Origin: a virus
Direction: 5' to 3' (one strand)
Length of the DNA: 64,000 nt
Virus record (IMG/VR): IMGVR_UViG_3300048838_000238
Location: 1-64,000 of that record
How positions within the stretch are numbered: the stretch's first letter is position 1; every line of letters begins with the position of its first letter. Under the pieces are notes generated by a model that worked only from the letters and a program-made list of their open reading frames with translations, did not search any database and had not been told where the DNA came from. Positions 4,508 through 35,640 of the stretch are shown in pieces. Position numbers and translations under genes: made by a program.

Positions 4508-6550
4508 TTATGCAGCCACTCCAAGTCCATCCAGTTGCAAGAACTGCTCTTTCGTCAATAGAGTGACTCCAGCTTGGCTTCCGCACGGCTCCCACGGCTT
4601 GGCAAGATTCGGTGGCAGCATAACCTCACGGCAGCACCACGCGCCGCCTGTGCCCATCTTCCCTGGCGAGTCGTAAAGATAACCATCTTCCCCACGTCCG
4701 TGGCCGTATGAGTCGAGATACTTGCAGATCGCTTGGTTCTTATTCCAAACCGCCTGCAAGCCTGCGATTGAATGCCCGCTACGTCCGTAGCAAACTCCCC
4801 AACCACGAATCAGCGCGGACACGAATTGCTCGTACGATTCGATCGCGTACCATTCCACAACCGTGAACCATTGAGCGATGTCTTCCCAGCCAGCCTTAAA
4901 GTAACTTCGCCCGTTCCCGGAAATGAACGGCGTATTTTGGTGAACGCAGAAGTCACCGAACATCGCAATGTTACGCGGGTTCTTCTCGGGGAGCTGGCCA
5001 TTCCCGCGAACGCCAGCCTTGAGGATCTGCAAGGCACCCCACATCGTTGATCCGCTACCACGGCGAGTCGTTACGCGACAGTAGCTCGACATCGGCGAGC
5101 ACTTGACGGACCACTTCTCGCCGATCTGCTTGTTGCGCATCGTATCGCGGACAACTTCCGCAGCGTTATGCACGCAGTTATGAACTCCAATCCCCTCGGC
5201 AACGTAGGAGTTGTCGCCTTCCACTTCCATGTTATAGACGTCGCCCGTGAATGCTTCCGTTTCAACGGATCGAACTCGTCTCCACACATGCTTGTCTTCG
5301 CGACGAAAGAATCGACCGTTGCCGACATCCTTTTTTCTCGGTGTCTTCCTGAACATGACGTCCCATCGCGGAAGTCGTTTCTTGACACCATGACTTGCCT
5401 TTGGATTCGACAAGCGAATCTGAGGATTGTAACCAAGGGCGTTTGCGATATCCCACATTGCCAACGCTAGATCGCGAGACACCGTGACACCCTGCCAATT
5501 GTCGTCGTAAGTTCGGTCGTGACCGTCTCCTGACATCCAGCCAAACAGCAGCGACTCGACGAATTCGGCTGGGCCGCTAAGCAAGTCCGCGTGGGGCTTC
5601 TTATTTCCAGCGCCACCGGGACCACATAGCGACTCAAATAGCCTAGCCCATTGAGTGCCTTGAACATGAACTTTACATGTGTTGGCACACTCGCGAATTT
5701 GAATCCGCCCTTCTACGCCCCACGCATCTCGCAGTAAATCCACCAGTTCTTGCGCCAAAGTGTCACGTTCTGTGATCGAGAACGTCCACGTAACCTGACC
5801 CTTATTTGTCGATCCCTCAGATAAGAACAGGCCGAAGATTCTCCCTGCGGCTGCGTCCAATGAAATCAAGTCGGGAACAACGTGCTTTGTGTACTCGATG
5901 CACGTCTTATCTTTCGCAAGAGGGCCTGTGTTGAATTTCCTTTTCCCGTACGTTTCCCTCGTCGCATAATGACGCTTCAGAACGGTCAGATGCGCAGACG
6001 TCTGCAAGACGCTACTCGACACAGGCAAGTAACGAGGTATGGCAACAAAGTCACCAGACTTGATGTCACCAGCCTTAACGTATCCATGATCCGTTAACAC
6101 CGGATGTTCCTTGGTCATCTTCAATCCGCGATGACCAAAAAGCTTCATATTTACCAGCTCTTTTGGTTCATGCCTGATGAACAGATGAGTGACGCGGCCG
6201 ATGTTCCTTTCGGCAGTCAACACCTTCTCTCCAAGCCTGATTTCGTCGATCGGCTTGTTCGATCCGTCCGCCATTCGAACGCGAGTTCCCTTCGGAAAGC
6301 AGCTTGACTCCGGGGCCTGATTGTTCCGCGCCTTGCGGAAAAACGGCAACGCGGTTTTCTCACGCTCCGCCTGCTCGATGCGGTCTTTCCATTCGTCACG
6401 AGGCACGAGCCAGTCTGAACTGAAACTCGGCGCGGCCGACATTTCGGCTGGGTCGATGATGAGCCCGCAAAAACCTGGGATGGCCTTTGCGTCCCGATCA
6501 AAGTCGACGTCAATCAGATTCGGATTGACTTGGAATAAATCAATTGCCAT
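4508..6550 (-). CDS. Papain-like cysteine peptidase with an intein
   Basis: 680 residues, of which 84-458 form an intein. The 305-residue mature protein reads ...NNQAPESS + CVHNAAEVV..., which looks like the papain-fold oxyanion Gln and catalytic Cys. Later VCYGRSGHSIAG supplies a candidate His, and LDSYGHGRGEDGY resembles the NSWGxxWGxxGY block with Asp for Asn. No signal peptide. Its position among membrane and secreted proteins suggests lysis or cell-wall/protein processing, but that is inferred. ATG 6550 overlaps the upstream stop by 11 bp. Confidence 0.75.
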   Translation of the reverse strand: MAIDLFQVNPNLIDVDFDRDAKAIPGFCGLIIDPAEMSAAPSFSSDWLVPRDEWKDRIEQAEREKTALPFFRKARNNQAPESSCFPKGTRVRMADGSNKPIDEIRLGEKVLTAERNIGRVTHLFIRHEPKELVNMKLFGHRGLKMTKEHPVLTDHGYVKAGDIKSGDFVAIPRYLPVSSSVLQTSAHLTVLKRHYATRETYGKRKFNTGPLAKDKTCIEYTKHVVPDLISLDAAAGRIFGLFLSEGSTNKGQVTWTFSITERDTLAQELVDLLRDAWGVEGRIQIRECANTCKVHVQGTQWARLFESLCGPGGAGNKKPHADLLSGPAEFVESLLFGWMSGDGHDRTYDDNWQGVTVSRDLALAMWDIANALGYNPQIRLSNPKASHGVKKRLPRWDVMFRKTPRKKDVGNGRFFRREDKHVWRRVRSVETEAFTGDVYNMEVEGDNSYVAEGIGVHNCVHNAAEVVRDTMRNKQIGEKWSVKCSPMSSYCRVTTRRGSGSTMWGALQILKAGVRGNGQLPEKNPRNIAMFGDFCVHQNTPFISGNGRSYFKAGWEDIAQWFTVVEWYAIESYEQFVSALIRGWGVCYGRSGHSIAGLQAVWNKNQAICKYLDSYGHGRGEDGYLYDSPGKMGTGGAWCCREVMLPPNLAKPWEPCGSQAGVTLLTKEQFLQLDGLGVAA
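5177..6301 (-). other. Intein with LAGLIDADG endonuclease
   Basis: 375 residues inside the peptidase gene. Block A is CFPKGTRVRMADGS with N-terminal Cys; block B contains TKEHPVL; block F is VYNMEVEGDNSYVAEG; block G is GIGVHN followed by extein Cys. All residues needed for splicing (Cys1, block B Thr/His, His-Asn, Cys+1) are present. The centre has two LAGLIDADG-like motifs, GRIFGLFLSEGS (~236) and LLFGWMSGDGH (~334), so it may be an active homing endonuclease. Confidence 0.93.
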
Positions 6551-8499: not shown

Positions 8500-8763
8500 T
8501 CAGTATCCTCGTTCCTTCAGCCATTCGATTTCAGCGGCCAGCGCCTCGGATCTCAGACCGAACGGACCAAGAACTACTCCCGGTTCAACCGGTGAAAGAT
8601 CAGCGGTCCAGCCGCCTCCGACCGCTGGTTCAACATGCGACACGCGCCGAACAGACGCTCGACCTAAGTTCAGAAGTTCCGACAATTCGTCTGAGTAGAT
8701 GAACTGCAATTGGCCGTTTTCGTCGATCACTAGGTCGTGGGATTTTATGGCGGTTGTTGTCAT
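8500..8763 (-). CDS. Small hypothetical protein (87 aa)
   Basis: Compact alpha/beta protein, with strand LVIDENGQLQFIY and ending LGPFGLRSEALAAEIEWL, a tail seen in many planctomycete and phage small proteins. It starts only 4 bp after the -10 of the promoter at 8768-8796, so the mRNA may be almost leaderless. Confidence 0.6.
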   Translation of the reverse strand: MTTTAIKSHDLVIDENGQLQFIYSDELSELLNLGRASVRRVSHVEPAVGGGWTADLSPVEPGVVLGPFGLRSEALAAEIEWLKERGY

Positions 8764-9045: not shown

Positions 9046-10182
9046 CTAATCGCGGCTAAGCGGCATCACCACGTACTTGTAACCGTCCAACTCAAACAGC
9101 ACGGCGCTGTCGCCGTCTCGGATGTGCATCGCGATCCCTGAGTCGCCGGCCACCTTCAGAAACTCCGCCACGAAAGTGTGGTCCAGAGTGATCGTTATGG
9201 GCTCGACTCCGTCTTGGCCGACAATCGGCAATTCAACGTGAGACTTCCCGACTTCCGCTGTATCGCAGGAGACCTCTAGCGTGCCGTCCGAGAACGTGAA
9301 TTCCATGCCTTTCGATTCTTGCGTGGCCACAATGGCGGCTTGCCTGACCGCCGATAACAGCACTGCCGCTGGCAAGTCGATGGTGCGGCAGCCGTCCGTG
9401 CTCGGTAGCACGTCGCGCCACTTCGGAAACTTTCCTTCGACCAGCCGCGAATAGAGCCGCACTCCAGCCGCCACGACGACAATGTGGTTTTCGTACACCG
9501 CGAGCGTGGCCTCGCCTGAATCCGGCAAGACTCGTTGGATCGCGCGTAGTGCCTTGCCGGGCACGATGGTCGTCAGCACGCTTGGCCCGCGTTCTTTCGC
9601 TGCTGCCGCCAGAGGCGCGGTGACTCGCGTTACCGCCAAACGTCTGCCGTCGGTCGCGACTCCCACTAACTCGTCATTGTCTCGGTCCAGCAGCACGCCA
9701 CCCAGTGCATACCGTGACGAGGTTTCATCGCACGCGAAGATCGTCCGCGAGATGAGTTGCCGCAGCGGTCCCGCCGGAACTTGGCAGCACTCGCCATCTT
9801 CGGTTCCAGTCGCGACATTCGGAAATTCATCCGGGTCCATCGTCGGCAGTTTCAGCTGGCTCCGCTCGCCGGATACCGTCAGAGGATCGCCGATCTCTCC
9901 GCTGTCGAGCGTCATGGATTCATCGCGGCATTCGCCGATCATCTTGGTGAACTCAGCTGGCGGCAGCAGCATCGCGCCGCACTGGTCGCCGGATACCTCG
10001 CATCCTTCGACCTCGATACTGACACCAATTTCCAAGTCAGTTGCATTCAGCGTCACGCCCTCTGGGCCGACGATCAACTTGACTTTGGACAGAATCGGCT
10101 TGGGGCAGTTCTTGGATGCCGCTACTGAGGCGGCCACGGCGAATGCCTTTTGCATCTTGGATCGGTTAAACGTGAGTCGCAT
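9046..10182 (-). CDS. dnaN: DNA polymerase III beta sliding clamp
   Basis: 378 residues, full length for a bacterial beta clamp with three repeated domains. Diagnostic stretches: LSKVKLIVGPEGVTLNATDL in domain 1, RYALGGVLLD and VATDGRRLAVTR in domain 2, and SDGTLEVSCDTAEVGKSHVE in domain 3, with C-terminus YVVMPLSRD. It forms the processivity ring for DNA polymerase and docks QxxLF peptides; several phage proteins here carry such peptides. No polymerase is in the window. ATG 10182 follows GGAAC and overlaps the upstream gene by 17 bp. Confidence 0.95.
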   Translation of the reverse strand: MRLTFNRSKMQKAFAVAASVAASKNCPKPILSKVKLIVGPEGVTLNATDLEIGVSIEVEGCEVSGDQCGAMLLPPAEFTKMIGECRDESMTLDSGEIGDPLTVSGERSQLKLPTMDPDEFPNVATGTEDGECCQVPAGPLRQLISRTIFACDETSSRYALGGVLLDRDNDELVGVATDGRRLAVTRVTAPLAAAAKERGPSVLTTIVPGKALRAIQRVLPDSGEATLAVYENHIVVVAAGVRLYSRLVEGKFPKWRDVLPSTDGCRTIDLPAAVLLSAVRQAAIVATQESKGMEFTFSDGTLEVSCDTAEVGKSHVELPIVGQDGVEPITITLDHTFVAEFLKVAGDSGIAMHIRDGDSAVLFELDGYKYVVMPLSRD

Positions 10183-10375
10183 CGGATTTGTTCCTTGATT
10201 CGGAATTGTCTGGGTTTGGAATGGGGATATGTTTAATCGCGCAATACAGACACGCTACGGTCGCAATCACTTTCAGGAAGCCAAGGTCGTCTTCCGGCGA
10301 CCACGTCGCCGACTCGATTGCCAAAAGAATCCAACACACGGGATACGGGTGACTTAAAACAGAGAACACATTCAC
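10166..10375 (-). CDS. Small membrane protein (69 aa)
   Basis: GTG at 10375 overlaps the DUF2997 stop (GTGA). Two hydrophobic stretches (YPVCWILLAIES and LKVIATVACLYCAI) suggest a hairpin membrane protein with a hydrophilic tail. Overlaps the clamp gene start, so likely co-translated. Unrecognised. Confidence 0.5.
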   Translation of the reverse strand: MNVFSVLSHPYPVCWILLAIESATWSPEDDLGFLKVIATVACLYCAIKHIPIPNPDNSESRNKSDATHV

Positions 10376-10563
10376 CGCGATGCCCTTTGCTGATTAGCTT
10401 GACTAGCGGCCAATCGGTACTCGGGTGTCCTGACGTCGGATGTCTTGTTACCGATGGCCTTCTCGATGGCCTCGGTCAAGTTCTGGCAGCCGGGGCCGGA
10501 AACGCCTTTGACTTCGATAGTGGTTTGTCCGTCTTCGTCGATCAGCAGGTCTATGTGTGCCAT
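10372..10563 (-). CDS. DUF2997 family protein
   Basis: 63 residues with the family layout: strand IDLLIDEDGQTTIEVKGVSG, then PGCQNLTEAIEKAIG. DUF2997 genes travel with DUF1257 (Ycf35-like) and Ycf46-type AAA genes in cyanobacteria, plastids, planctomycetes and some phages; both partners are in this window (10871-11320 and 15964-17454). Biochemical role unknown. Confidence 0.8.
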   Translation of the reverse strand: MAHIDLLIDEDGQTTIEVKGVSGPGCQNLTEAIEKAIGNKTSDVRTPEYRLAASQANQQRASR

Positions 10564-10870: not shown

Positions 10871-11320
10871 CTACCGCAGTCTGCCGCCTGTCAAACGCAG
10901 CCGGACCTTGGTGCCTTCCTCGATTCTCTGGACGCGGTAGCCGAGCTTCGCAGCGGCCCTCGCCGCCTTCGACGTCGCCAGTGCCTGCTTGAGCTTCTTG
11001 CAGTTCTCGCCGACTTTCTCCTTCAGGCCCCAGCCGCCCATCCAGAAATCCCATAGCGGCACCAACTTGCCGTCTCGTTCGACAAGTCCGATCTCGTACT
11101 CGGCTCCCGTGCCGTCCTTGACGCGGATGGCGTGATCACACTTACCCAGGTCGGATTTCGTGAAGCCGTCCTGCAAAGGGTAATCGCCTACGCTAGTTCC
11201 GTACCACTTGTAAGTCTTCTGGCCTCGCATCAGCTCGCAGCCGATCAGCTCGCAAGCCAGCGCGACGTCATCGAGTTCATCCGGTCGGATTTCCAAGTCA
11301 ACTACGGCGACGTGCGACAT
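10871..11320 (-). CDS. DUF1257 (Ycf35-like) protein
   Basis: 149 residues. Opens SHVAVVDLEIRPDELDDV, then AIRVKDGTGAEYEIGLVER and the conserved Trp stretch LWDFWMGGWGL, with a C-terminal YRVQRIEEGTKVRLRLTG that matches the DUF1257/Ycf35 pattern. The family is widespread but uncharacterised; genomic partners are DUF2997 and Ycf46 AAA ATPases, as here. Confidence 0.8.
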   Translation of the reverse strand: MSHVAVVDLEIRPDELDDVALACELIGCELMRGQKTYKWYGTSVGDYPLQDGFTKSDLGKCDHAIRVKDGTGAEYEIGLVERDGKLVPLWDFWMGGWGLKEKVGENCKKLKQALATSKAARAAAKLGYRVQRIEEGTKVRLRLTGGRLR

Positions 11321-13748: not shown

Positions 13749-14984
13749 CTAAACTTCGTCGTCAAAGGTGATCGCGCGAGTTGGGCGATCAATCAACATC
13801 GTTTCCATCCGGTCCTTCAAGTCGCGTAGGCCGTTGCTGATATGCAGCCGCGTGTCTTCGTCGCTGCGCAGCTTGGTCGGATCGACGCCGCCGACGAGCG
13901 CCTTGGCTTCCTGGACCAACTGGTCCAGCGCCGCGTTGCTGCCGATGTTCAACTGACCGAACCGGTCAAAGAAGTCCCGCAAGCCGCCTACAGCCGAGTC
14001 GCGGAACGTCTTGTGTTCCATCGTGGTCCGCTCAAAGCGGCAGCCGCATTCCGTGAGCCATGCGGCAGCCGCCTCTTTGTCGTCAAACTTAAATGTCGTT
14101 CTGCGGCCTTTCTCGGGAATCGCCGATACGTCGCCGTCGCGGACCTCGATCGCGCCAGCACGAGACAGCGCAGCGCGGCGATTGACTTCGGACAGCCGGT
14201 TATTAAGGGCTTCGACGTCGCTTGTGAACGCCGCCGTGGAACCGTCGGCAGACGGCAACTCCAATTCGATCGCTTCGGCTTGGGCTTCCAACTCGGCGGT
14301 AGAAGGTCCGTTCTGATAGACCCAGACTTCGACCGACTGCGGCTGCAACCGATCAAATAGGTGCTCGACCAGCCCTGAGAATTCATTGCTAAATGCTCGC
14401 TCTGTCATGGCAATCGCTTCGTCGAACTTGGCGGCGAGACGGGCTTCTTGCTGCGCGTACAGTTCCGGGTTCAGTTGCTTCAAGAAGTTTGGCGGCTTCA
14501 CCGATGGGAACTCCCAATCGACGCTGAACTCTTCTGCGATGTTGGTCGGATAGTCGGCCTCATCGAACAGAGAGCCCAGATCGGCTTCCGCCTGATTGCG
14601 GATTCCCTCGTAAGCTTCCTGCAAAGCTGCGGTCGCTTGATCCAGCTCCGCGCGGTAGACGACCATGCGAGAATTGAACTCGTCGATGCGGTCGCGGCGC
14701 AGCAGCCGAATACCAGACTCTGGATACGGGATTGTGGAGTTCTTCCAGAACTGATTGATCTGGTAGAACACGGCGCTGACCGCGAGATACGGCGCGCTCG
14801 ACGGATCGATCAGCCGCTTCGTGGCACGCAAGCTGTCGACCGATGCGCCAAAGGTCAGCGCGGCTTGCTGTGTCTTCTCCTTGGGCAGCGCCCGGCGGAC
14901 GCCAAACTTCTTGGTGCTGACCTTGGTGGCAGCGGTTTCCGCTTGCAGCTTGGTGGTCAGGTCTTGATCGAGTAGTTCCGGCAT
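13749..14984 (-). CDS. Coiled-coil protein resembling DUF3150
   Basis: 411 residues, largely helical. RLIDPSSAPYLAVSAVFYQI and WKNSTIPYPESGIRLLRRD resemble the start of DUF3150-type proteins that accompany AAA ATPases in phages and plasmids. A long helix 110-160, YPTNIAEEFSVDWEFP, and a C-terminal helical region follow. The permuted AAA ATPase gene is close (15964-17454), so the two may form a complex; inference only. It is the first gene after the promoter at 15010-15057. Confidence 0.6.
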   Translation of the reverse strand: MPELLDQDLTTKLQAETAATKVSTKKFGVRRALPKEKTQQAALTFGASVDSLRATKRLIDPSSAPYLAVSAVFYQINQFWKNSTIPYPESGIRLLRRDRIDEFNSRMVVYRAELDQATAALQEAYEGIRNQAEADLGSLFDEADYPTNIAEEFSVDWEFPSVKPPNFLKQLNPELYAQQEARLAAKFDEAIAMTERAFSNEFSGLVEHLFDRLQPQSVEVWVYQNGPSTAELEAQAEAIELELPSADGSTAAFTSDVEALNNRLSEVNRRAALSRAGAIEVRDGDVSAIPEKGRRTTFKFDDKEAAAAWLTECGCRFERTTMEHKTFRDSAVGGLRDFFDRFGQLNIGSNAALDQLVQEAKALVGGVDPTKLRSDEDTRLHISNGLRDLKDRMETMLIDRPTRAITFDDEV

Positions 14985-15963: not shown

Positions 15964-17454
15964 CTACTCCAGTTCGATGGCCGCTCTTTGAGTCGGCTGG
16001 ATCATCTGTGCCGCGCCAGCCTTGCGGTAGAAACCGCGATATGACGCCGACAAGTACCGTCCGTCGCAACCGTCACGCAAAGCGTCGATTTGCTCGCCAG
16101 CACTGCGCGACACCGGCACGATGTAGTCCGCTGCTTGCTTGAGCGTGATCCCTTGCAGGTATGCCAGTTCACAGCAGTTCTCGATTTCGGCGCCGGTCCA
16201 GCCGCTGTCGACCGGCTTGTTCATGATGTACTTGCCGGGCAGCTCGTACTTGCCGATGTACATGGCCCAAATCGAGTCGCGCTCTTTATCGGTCGGCAAG
16301 TCAAAGAAAAACGTGCCGAGCTTAAACCTTCGGCGCAATTCTGGTTTGAGTGACTGAATGGAATTGCACGTTGCCACCCAGATCGCGTTACCGTTGGAAA
16401 CACTGGTGATGACCTTCAGCGCCTGTCGAATGGTCTTCTCTGATTCCCCGACGAGGCTTCCCTTGGCACTTCCCAGGTCTAACTGGATGGTCGGAACGCC
16501 CGCTTCGTTGCCGAGTGACTTCGCGACGGCGCTCTTGCCGGAACCGGCTGGTCCCAGGAAGATCGCGCCGCGGCTGCGCCGGTCCTGCATGTACGTCAGC
16601 AAGCAGCCGAGTTGGTCTTGCGAAACTCCAGACGTGTCGCCTTCGCCGCCGAGCGCCTTTTCGATCTCATCCAGGAAGATTATCGCGTTCGGGCGGGCCG
16701 GGCCGGATATGACGCGACCAAGGAATTCCTTGACGTTATCGTAGCCGCCGATGTCCTTGAACCGATTTCCTTCGCGCCACACACTGAGCGCCGGGCACTG
16801 TTCGATTTGCTGCCGCTTCCGCTCCCACAGGTCGTCGACATGAATACCTTCACGGGTGAAGCTCATCGCGATAGCCTGTTCAGCAGCAAACGCTGACAGC
16901 CCTTGTACGGCTTCGACGGCGCGAACTCGCGTTTCATCCGGCACCGGCACCTGCGCTGCGACCGATACCGAATCAACCACTTGACCGAGTTGCTCGCCGG
17001 TGGGGAGCGGATCGTCCAGGCATAACACGTCGTTTTGCAACTCGGCTGGCAACCGGAAGTCTGGACCAAGTAACACGAGCGTCCGCTTGTCACCCTTGAA
17101 TAAGTCGCGGACATTGCAGATCGCCTGCAAGAAGTCGACTTTCTCCAGGAAGCGATTTCCCATGTGGATGAAGAAGATCGTTTTGGCTGGCAGCCGTTCG
17201 CCGGCCAGAACTGCAAGCTGTTCGTTGCCAGCGGTCGCATCTGCTAGGTCGCCGACGGCGCCCACGGCCTCTAGTCCCAGGTCGTTAATCGCTTTCATGC
17301 CGCGCATCACGTCCCACTGGACGATTGGTGTATTGCCGTTGCTAACTTCCAGGATACGGTTAATGATCGCGGTCGGATCGGGGGTGCTGATTGCCATCAG
17401 CGGAACGGCTGCGTTACGGGCGGCTTTGAATTGTTTGAGAATATCGGCAGACAT
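15964..17454 (-). CDS. Ycf46-like AAA ATPase with permuted core
   Basis: 496 residues. Residues 1-230 match the Ycf46 N-terminal domain (PLMAISTPDP, KTIFFIHMGNRF, TLVLLGPDFRLPAELQ). The AAA core is rearranged: GGYDNVKEFL, then Walker B IIFLDEIEKALGG (258-270), then Walker A GPAGSGKSA (301-309), then LVGESEKTIRQAL, sensor-1-like VATCNS (360-365) and Arg residues ELRRRF. In normal Ycf46/AAA proteins Walker A comes first. Key residues all look intact, so an active ATPase is likely. Partners DUF1257 and DUF2997 are encoded downstream. Promoter at 17483-17530. Confidence 0.88.
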   Translation of the reverse strand: MSADILKQFKAARNAAVPLMAISTPDPTAIINRILEVSNGNTPIVQWDVMRGMKAINDLGLEAVGAVGDLADATAGNEQLAVLAGERLPAKTIFFIHMGNRFLEKVDFLQAICNVRDLFKGDKRTLVLLGPDFRLPAELQNDVLCLDDPLPTGEQLGQVVDSVSVAAQVPVPDETRVRAVEAVQGLSAFAAEQAIAMSFTREGIHVDDLWERKRQQIEQCPALSVWREGNRFKDIGGYDNVKEFLGRVISGPARPNAIIFLDEIEKALGGEGDTSGVSQDQLGCLLTYMQDRRSRGAIFLGPAGSGKSAVAKSLGNEAGVPTIQLDLGSAKGSLVGESEKTIRQALKVITSVSNGNAIWVATCNSIQSLKPELRRRFKLGTFFFDLPTDKERDSIWAMYIGKYELPGKYIMNKPVDSGWTGAEIENCCELAYLQGITLKQAADYIVPVSRSAGEQIDALRDGCDGRYLSASYRGFYRKAGAAQMIQPTQRAAIELE

Positions 17455-34228: not shown

Positions 34229-35359
34229 TTATTCTTGAACAGCCGCGCCGAACAGCCATCCGCGAACGTGATCGGCGACAGCGCGCAACCGCCGATCTTC
34301 AATGTTCTCGCGATACATGCCTGATATCGTGTTGTCCGAATGCCCCATGATGGCGCGAGTCGACAAGTAATCGCCGTGCTGGTCGCCGATCGTCTGGAAG
34401 CCGTGACGTAATGCGTAGAAGCCGCGATTCGCCTCATAGACATCTTGGGACACGCAGAGCTTTTTGAACTCCGCCGACAAAGGATTTGCTTTGGAATCGG
34501 TGAACCAGCATTGGCCGCGCTTCGTGCGGAACACCAGCGGATCGGTGTCGGACTTGCGTGATTCGAGCGCCGCCTGCAACGCCCCGACTGTCTCGGGCCA
34601 CAATGGGCAGCGCCGCGCAATCCCGGTCTTCGGCCTCGGGTAGTCGATCCAGCCGTTTTGCATGTCAAGAGCGCTCACCGGAAGTTGCCCGCAGTCCCCG
34701 TTCCCGAACCCGCAGTTGATCGCTAGCAGGATCATGGCTTTCATCTGGACGTCGGCGGCAGCGATCAGCTTGCGAATCTCGACTGCGTTGAACAGTTTGC
34801 TTCCGGCCTTAGCCTTTTCGCGCCTGGTGACCCTCTTGGCAGGCCGTTTGAAATCCCCGAACCGGACTGGCTTATCGATCAACCCGTTCTCAAACCCATA
34901 CCTCAGAATCACCCGACAGCGAGTGACTTCGTTCCCTAGACTGGTCGCGTTCATGGTCTTCGACAAGGCGCGGCGGAGCTTCATCAAATCATGCGGCTGC
35001 AACTCCTGAACCACGGATGCCTTACCGAGATGCTCGATCATCCGTTCGCACGACTTGTAGTAGTCGTCATACGTCCGGTGGGCAAGTTCGCCACCGTCAC
35101 GCTTACTCTTCGCGTTCGTCATGAACGAGTTACAGAGCGTCATTAGGTCGCAGGCATCGCCGTCGAAGATCCGTGGTGACCGCCCGGACAGAAGATCGTC
35201 CTTGACGCGCAGCCATTCGGCTAAAGCTTTATCAGGGTCCGTGCCGAAGTAGAAGTCGCGGCCTCGAATCCGCTTGCGATACTGACCGGTCTTGTGGAGT
35301 CCCAACGGGAACTTATCGGCCCGCTTGCCCTTACCTGCTTCCGGATTAGAATTGTCCAT
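34229..35359 (-). CDS. int: Tyrosine recombinase (phage integrase)
   Basis: 376 residues from ATG 35359; the longer frame to 35479 runs through att arm repeats and is unlikely. Core-binding domain ~80-180, catalytic domain 200-370. PRPKTG gives the beta-hairpin Lys, YALRHGF the second Arg (Tyr replaces the usual His), MGHSD the His and MYREN the nucleophile Tyr. The first conserved Arg (GLRxGE) is replaced in CGFGNGDCGQL, as in the planctomycete integrase group I know. It integrates at the tRNA-Asn-derived site next to it. Confidence 0.88.
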   Translation of the reverse strand: MDNSNPEAGKGKRADKFPLGLHKTGQYRKRIRGRDFYFGTDPDKALAEWLRVKDDLLSGRSPRIFDGDACDLMTLCNSFMTNAKSKRDGGELAHRTYDDYYKSCERMIEHLGKASVVQELQPHDLMKLRRALSKTMNATSLGNEVTRCRVILRYGFENGLIDKPVRFGDFKRPAKRVTRREKAKAGSKLFNAVEIRKLIAAADVQMKAMILLAINCGFGNGDCGQLPVSALDMQNGWIDYPRPKTGIARRCPLWPETVGALQAALESRKSDTDPLVFRTKRGQCWFTDSKANPLSAEFKKLCVSQDVYEANRGFYALRHGFQTIGDQHGDYLSTRAIMGHSDNTISGMYRENIEDRRLRAVADHVRGWLFGAAVQE

Positions 35360-35640
35360 TGTCGACCGCTCGCATGGTAGAAAAGTGGTACTAGGGTAGC
35401 TTTTAGGGTAGCGACAAAAATACCAAGTAGACGTTTTACCTGCAAGACAACGACGAAAACCAATAAAAACAAGCATCAAACGACTTCATTCCCCTGTAGC
35501 TCAGTCGGTAGAGCAGCGGACTGTTAAACTACTTAGCCGATGAGACAGGCTTGATTTCCCAAGGAAAACGCCTCATCTGGTCTCACCGATCCCGGTCAAA
35601 TCAGTCGAAAAGTGGTAGGCTACCACCGATGAACGACTGT
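35360..35640 (+). other. attP region with tRNA-Asn 5' half
   Basis: 35490-35527 is identical in layout to the 5' half of tRNA-Asn: acceptor TCCCCTG, D arm GCTC...GAGC and anticodon loop CTGTTAA (anticodon GTT). Homology stops after the loop and no 3' half follows. The 11-mer GAAAAGTGGTA occurs on both sides (35380-35390, 35607-35617), and TAGGGTAGC twice at 35392-35412, as expected of arm-type integrase sites. Phage genes lie on both sides, so this is attP. Confidence 0.75.

Follow-up and report, generated by a model that had tools for sequence, protein, structure and literature searches.

A Ycf46-like viral protein with Walker B ahead of Walker A represents a new topological variant of AAA ATPases

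Few protein machines have been studied as much as AAA ATPases, and the order of their motifs along the chain, with Walker A followed by Walker B and then by sensor 1, is treated as definitional. The standard AAA core is built on a parallel sheet with the strand order 5-1-4-3-2, in which the N-termini of the strands face away from the nucleotide. Natural reordering of motifs in a P-loop NTPase is known from YjeQ/RsgA and YlqF, which are circularly permuted GTPases that keep their active site. No report of a permuted AAA domain or of an altered Walker order was found in the part of the literature that was accessible to our search, which included PMC7824862 and PMC10853773 and left subscription journals mostly uncovered. 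Here we describe a Ycf46-like protein, encoded by a virus of bacteria, whose clade adds a new topological variant to the AAA ATPases. We are highly confident that this protein is a working ATPase, with its activity inferred, and that its core underwent rewiring, most likely a single time, within a lineage comprising phages and related mobile elements.

Motif and block order in the window protein

The window examined in this study is a stretch of 64,000 nucleotides that forms part of a virus record of 105,996 bases (IMGVR_UViG_3300048838_000238), in which the gene of interest is single-copy. This gene, at positions 15964..17454 on the minus strand, encodes a protein of 496 amino acids (P0001) that is identified as a permuted Ycf46-like AAA ATPase from its open reading frame (ORF), its relatives and an AlphaFold2 (AF2) model; relatives collinear with it are 36-53% identical. 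All parts of the protein discussed below are likewise given by their coordinates on the minus strand. The motif region at 16528-16686 corresponds to residues 257-309. Here, Walker B (A257-IIFLDEIEK-266, with D262 and E263; residues 257-265, AIIFLDEIE, at 16660..16686) precedes Walker A (G301-PAGSGKS-308, at 16531..16554). Downstream of both Walker motifs are sensor 1 (VATCN, with T362 and N364; residues 361-364, ATCN, at 16363..16374) and then RRRF at residues 374-377, of which RRR (374-376, at 16327..16335) is a candidate arginine finger. The initial annotation had proposed that Walker B comes before Walker A and that sensor 1 and an arginine-containing segment follow, and this chain order is borne out both by the ORF and by the order of the profile blocks described below.

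The Pfam AAA model (PF00004) matches the window protein with a score of 60.3 bits, where the cut-off is 21.2, in two separate stretches. The Walker A pattern GxxxxGK[ST], a Walker B of the form hhhhDE (IIFLDE) and the sensor 1 residue N364 are all present, but the canonical AAA order of A, B and sensor 1 is absent and is replaced by B, A and sensor 1. The protein is homologous to AAA proteins by descent and is a topological variant of the AAA fold. Its earlier labelling as a Ycf46 homologue is right in the broad sense, given that the top viral matches found with Foldseek are three proteins named ycf46 and that the best PHROG is phrog_8638, which normal-order relatives match from end to end. 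All regions of phrog_8638 are present in the window protein as well, but in four stretches rather than in one collinear match.

A profile hidden Markov model (HMM) of the normal order was built from eight phage homologues (HJ05, Catdawg, RHph_I4, L338C, Javan368, JP1, RcTiptonus and DLP5). This model matches the window protein in four blocks, which in chain order correspond to profile positions 15-282, 360-398, 298-358 and 400-530, with i-E-values of 1.8e-17, 4.5e-12, 1.4e-20 and 8e-13, respectively. By these scores, the scrambled block order is far beyond chance. Each block of the normal profile is found once, and together the blocks cover the profile except for positions 283-297, a short segment ahead of b1 that is without counterpart in the window protein (b denotes a strand and a a helix, numbered as in the normal AAA core).

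The first block contains an N-terminal domain of alternating strands and helices (residues 1-225, at 16780..17454), which is Ycf46-like and in its normal position. The N-terminal strap of the AAA domain (DIGG) and the first helix are also in their normal position according to the HMM and AF2 (residues 229-255, at 16690..16770), with this helix at residues 239-249, and the strap segment now continues into b3 rather than into b1. The two moved blocks, both delimited by profile and AF2, are b3-a3 (residues 256-293, at 16576..16689), with Walker B and the helix that follows it, and b1-a1-b2-a2 (residues 294-353, at 16396..16575), which contains Walker A and the segment GSLVGESE. The next part of the chain (residues 356-472, at 16039..16389; profile 400-530), comprising b4 with sensor 1, the arginine segment, b5 and the lid, is in its normal position. 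As judged from sequence, b1-a1-b2-a2 and b3-a3, which are neighbours in the core, have exchanged positions, and the rest of the chain is in place. The initial suggestion of a permuted core therefore stands with regard to the reordering, and is refined to an internal swap of two blocks instead of a permutation of the whole domain. Circular permutation of the AAA domain is ruled out, since the DIGG strap and the region from sensor 1 to the lid are at the original ends.

Recurrence and descent of the swapped order

Relatives were collected by scanning IMG/VR together with bacterial and archaeal genomes, and were classified by block order. The permuted order was found in 92 distinct proteins (<95% identical) and the normal order in 71 relatives. 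Permuted proteins are encoded on IMG/VR contigs, on contigs assigned to bacterial genomes and by the cultured Tunturiibacter phage Tunturi_3 (PP885686), whose gp103, annotated only as 'ATPase', has the permuted order and aligns over 98% of the window protein, used as the query, at 36.5% identity. By the similarity of this one protein, Tunturi_3 is the nearest cultured phage. A scan of the genome contigs with a single protein gave no hits, and an alignment-based scan gave 12 permuted loci on bacterial-genome contigs, including one on the complete chromosome of Nitrospira moscoviensis (L100). When matched to a profile made from the sister clade of normal order, 91 of 96 unique permuted proteins were split in the same manner (51-245 / 318-358 / 256-316 / 361-487), and the internal block edges vary little (interquartile range, 0 to 5 residues).

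These data bear on the possibility that the swapped order comes from a misassembled, chimeric or otherwise rearranged contig. Single metagenome contigs can indeed be chimeric. However, the order is shared, with the same breakpoints, by 92 distinct sequences from many metagenomes, from Tunturi_3 and from the N. moscoviensis chromosome, and ORFs remain open across both junctions. Furthermore, dN/dS is 0.04-0.11 in the 11 closest permuted pairs (at least 90% identical), which is far below 1. Because there are 92 distinct relatives, among them one in a cultured phage genome and one in a complete bacterial chromosome, we conclude that the order is not an assembly artefact, and we regard the chance that it is one as negligible. 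An absence of relatives that keep the order, which would have refuted the original proposal, is likewise not what the homologue search returned.

A tree inferred with IQ-TREE (71 rows, LG+C20, with columns placed in the normal order) requires one change between the two orders, at a split with support of 100/100, and unites the permuted proteins in one clade (100/100). This mixture-model tree was used because FastTree supports were inconsistent after re-rooting (0.91, 0.32, 0.04, 0.67 and 0.72). Among the normal-order proteins, a viral clade (L086, L256, L257 and L259) is nearest and joins the permuted clade with a moderate bootstrap of 84; its member L086 and the window protein have about 33% identity. 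Since the normal order is common to the wider AAA family, the swap is inferred to be the derived state. The block swap is best read as natural and probably of single origin. We infer that it would have arisen by duplication of the block from b1 to a3 and subsequent loss of the outer copies; no duplicated or intermediate cores (B-A-B or A-B-A-B) were found among the classified ORFs.

Two observations were made on other normal-order proteins. A sister-clade relative (L268, 4011-7253 of IMG/VR 3300044712_001462) has two of its catalytic motifs interrupted: the Walker B aspartate is split from the adjacent glutamate by a group I intron (RF00028, E 4.4e-18, 5084-5303), and an intein-like insert that starts with C-LAGG and ends with HN-C is located at sensor 1. 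On one Acidobacteriia contig (L117, 870-4811), two normal-order relatives lie close together on the same strand.

Predicted fold, catalytic residues and proposed mechanism

An AF2 model of the window protein, computed with 70 permuted sequences, has a pLDDT of 94.1 and a pTM of 0.88, and that of the normal-order sister L086 has a pLDDT of 88.4. The predicted elements of the window protein are b3 (257-261), a3 (277-291), b1 (295-300), a1 (307-318), b2 (322-325), a2 (335-353), b4 (357-363) and b5 (380-383). Those of L086 are b1 (255-260), a1 (266-277), b2 (281-284), a2 (296-310), b3 (314-318), a3 (338-352), b4 (357-363) and b5 (381-385). The core elements of the two models correspond one to one in a different order, and b4 occupies the same residues in both. 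A different strand connection had been expected for such a core, and this is what the profile blocks and AF2 yield, with b3-a3 now ahead of b1-a1-b2-a2 and both ahead of b4.

Covariation within the permuted clade was examined independently of AF2. By corrected mutual information, the pair 256-354 ranks first of 13,695 long-range pairs (9.9 SD); these residues, located before b3 and after a2, are nearly adjacent in the normal chain and 98 apart in the permuted chain. Couplings between a2 and a3 and between b3 and b4, which match the normal AAA core, are also among the top pairs. The covariation rests on only about 87 effective sequences, and the mutual-information ranking is without tree correction. 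The sheet is predicted to have the order 5-1-4-3-2, on which AF2 element correspondence and covariation agree, although this has not been measured directly and there is no solved structure. Foldseek, which is blind to non-sequential matches and served as a contrast only, found no library structure that superposes on the window protein over its full length. Its highest TMq, 0.69, is with ycf46 models of normal-order phage proteins, compared with 0.50 for Rix7, and the TMq to one SM1 ycf46 model is 0.63 for the permuted protein and 0.78 for the normal-order sister.

It could be argued that the protein consists of an ordinary AAA domain with a second, unrelated nucleotide motif, or that it carries remnants of two ATPase domains, as the two separate matches of the Pfam model might indicate. 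This reading is hard to reconcile with blocks that each occur once and tile the profile, apart from the short segment ahead of b1, and with an AF2 model that has a single set of core strands and helices instead of an ordinary fold plus an extra motif. No relative with a B-A-B arrangement or a duplicated core was found either. Because the four blocks tile the profile once and AF2 gives a single core, we consider an unrelated second motif to be highly improbable.

Under the preferred explanation, a rewired but otherwise complete AAA core, the chain would have been cut at three points, immediately before strands b1, b3 and b4. From the established fold, these points are inferred to be on the face of the sheet away from the nucleotide. 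The loops of Walker A, Walker B and sensor 1, which follow b1, b3 and b4, would be undisturbed because the cuts are at the N-termini of the strands. The new connections would amount to only two short linkers of about 3 residues each, from a3 to b1 and from a2 to b4. The position of the cuts away from the nucleotide would be the simplest reason why the swap is tolerated, and the chain would adopt the normal sheet, probably assemble into a ring, and bind and hydrolyse ATP, with both activity and ring formation inferred.

Rewired chains can favour domain swapping, and the arginine segment is altered in this same clade, so the fold might instead be completed only by strand exchange between subunits, with AAA cores shared between ring neighbours. 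In contrast to this expectation, AF2 predicts a compact, confident monomer, and linkers of about 3 residues suffice to skip one strand. We therefore view such an exchange as very unlikely.

Among the 92 permuted relatives, the Walker A lysine and serine/threonine, the Walker B aspartate and glutamate and the sensor 1 asparagine are all 100% conserved, and the sensor 1 threonine is 98% conserved. The residue preceding the catalytic lysine is glycine in 55% and alanine in 35%. Walker A variants unusual for AAA proteins include GPPGAAKS in L012 and GVPGVSKS in Tunturi_3. Normal-order relatives have two invariant arginines three columns apart (RxxR), of which the second is not conserved in the permuted clade; a single invariant arginine (100% in one column) is present there at a position neighbouring the normal pair. 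The initial claim that all functional residues remain is upheld for the five invariant catalytic positions; the RxxR pair, however, is altered.

These departures leave some room for a permuted core that is catalytically dead and now serves as a nucleotide-binding or structural subunit, for which the alanine before the lysine, the GVPGVSKS of Tunturi_3 and the unconserved second arginine could be cited. Inactive AAA domains usually lose the Walker B glutamate or the sensor residues. Here, by comparison, these catalytic residues are fully conserved and close pairs show a low dN/dS, and we judge a loss of catalysis to be unlikely. An active core is supported by the invariant residues and by purifying selection, in the absence of any activity measurement. 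Kinetics or inter-subunit coupling may differ, given the frequent alanine and the altered RxxR. We also entertain, tentatively and as the less probable outcome, that the rewiring is more than neutral: the joins of the Walker B helix to the Walker A strand and of a2 to sensor 1 could change the relay of nucleotide state, with the altered arginine pair and the relaxed Walker A glycine as compensation in a new inter-subunit coupling.

Gene neighbourhood and comparison with known systems

All four neighbour families associated with permuted loci are present in the window, each on the minus strand: a DUF3150-like partner of 411 amino acids (13749..14984; assigned by family membership, with a DUF3150 match of 1.3e-5 for a member), a DUF1257-like (Ycf35-like) gene (10871..11320; family HMM E 6e-49), a DUF2997 gene (10372..10563; E 1e-19) and a small conserved neighbour of unassigned function from a family of about 88-110 amino acids (8500..8763; E 1.5e-28). 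The DUF3150-like family occurs at 78 of 88 permuted loci and at 7 normal-order loci, and a DUF3150-like gene is also near the permuted gene of N. moscoviensis (L100); the DUF1257-like, DUF2997 and small unknown families occur at 47, 46 and 40 of the same 88. No mention of DUF3150 was found in the literature searched. The DUF1257 and DUF2997 neighbourhood is common to the window and many normal-order loci. The operon with DUF1257, DUF2997 and DUF3150-like genes is that of the nearest normal-order relatives as well, and the module is also found at normal-order loci L086, L107, L108, L113 and L115 and on a Manganitrophus plasmid. Two plasmid relatives that were checked (Manganitrophus L271 and Pseudanabaena L272) have the normal order. 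Because the module is shared, the permuted ATPase appears to have kept the function of the normal-order proteins related to it, and it would serve the same DUF1257/DUF2997/DUF3150-like module. Its cellular role is inferred to be that of a chaperone or remodelling ATPase.

More broadly, the module of Ycf46-like AAA ATPase, DUF1257, DUF2997 and DUF3150 is widespread in phages, cellular genomes and plasmids, and in the cyanobacterium Pseudanabaena (L272) the AAA, DUF1257 and DUF2997 genes adjoin an Hsp70 gene. Elsewhere in the window, a protein of 378 amino acids (9046-10182) resembles, by eye, a DNA polymerase III beta clamp, and its cluster is present at 5 other permuted loci. A large integrase (phrog_1, E 7e-28) is encoded at 34229-35479, and few recognisable PHROGs were otherwise found among the ten genes tested.

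These findings indicate that the ancient AAA fold tolerates altered chain connectivity in nature. The permuted clade offers a natural experiment on how far the AAA mechanism depends on that connectivity, with proteins of the L086 type as the normal-order comparison. It also exposes a blind spot, in that profiles built on motif order break such proteins into partial hits, and it connects a phage module of which little is known (Ycf46-like ATPase, DUF1257/Ycf35, DUF2997 and DUF3150) with an ATPase whose architecture can be mapped onto a tree.

The closest described systems are the normal-order phage Ycf46-like ATPases of phrog_8638 (L338C, RHph_I4, Catdawg and HJ05), which have in common with the window protein the N-terminal domain, the core elements, the lid, the C-terminal region and the module. 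They differ from it in having b1-a1-b2-a2 before b3-a3, an invariant RxxR after sensor 1 and a single collinear profile match. Classical AAA proteins (Cdc48/p97, Rix7 and FtsH) give the best matches in the PDB, both in sequence and in fold, and are alike in Walker A, Walker B, sensor 1, arginine segment and lid, but have the normal order, and the best sequential superposition on a PDB structure reaches a TM of only 0.50-0.52 (Rix7 and NVL). In YjeQ/RsgA and YlqF, it is the GTPase domain as a whole that is circularly permuted, whereas in the window protein internal blocks of the AAA domain are swapped while both of its ends remain fixed.
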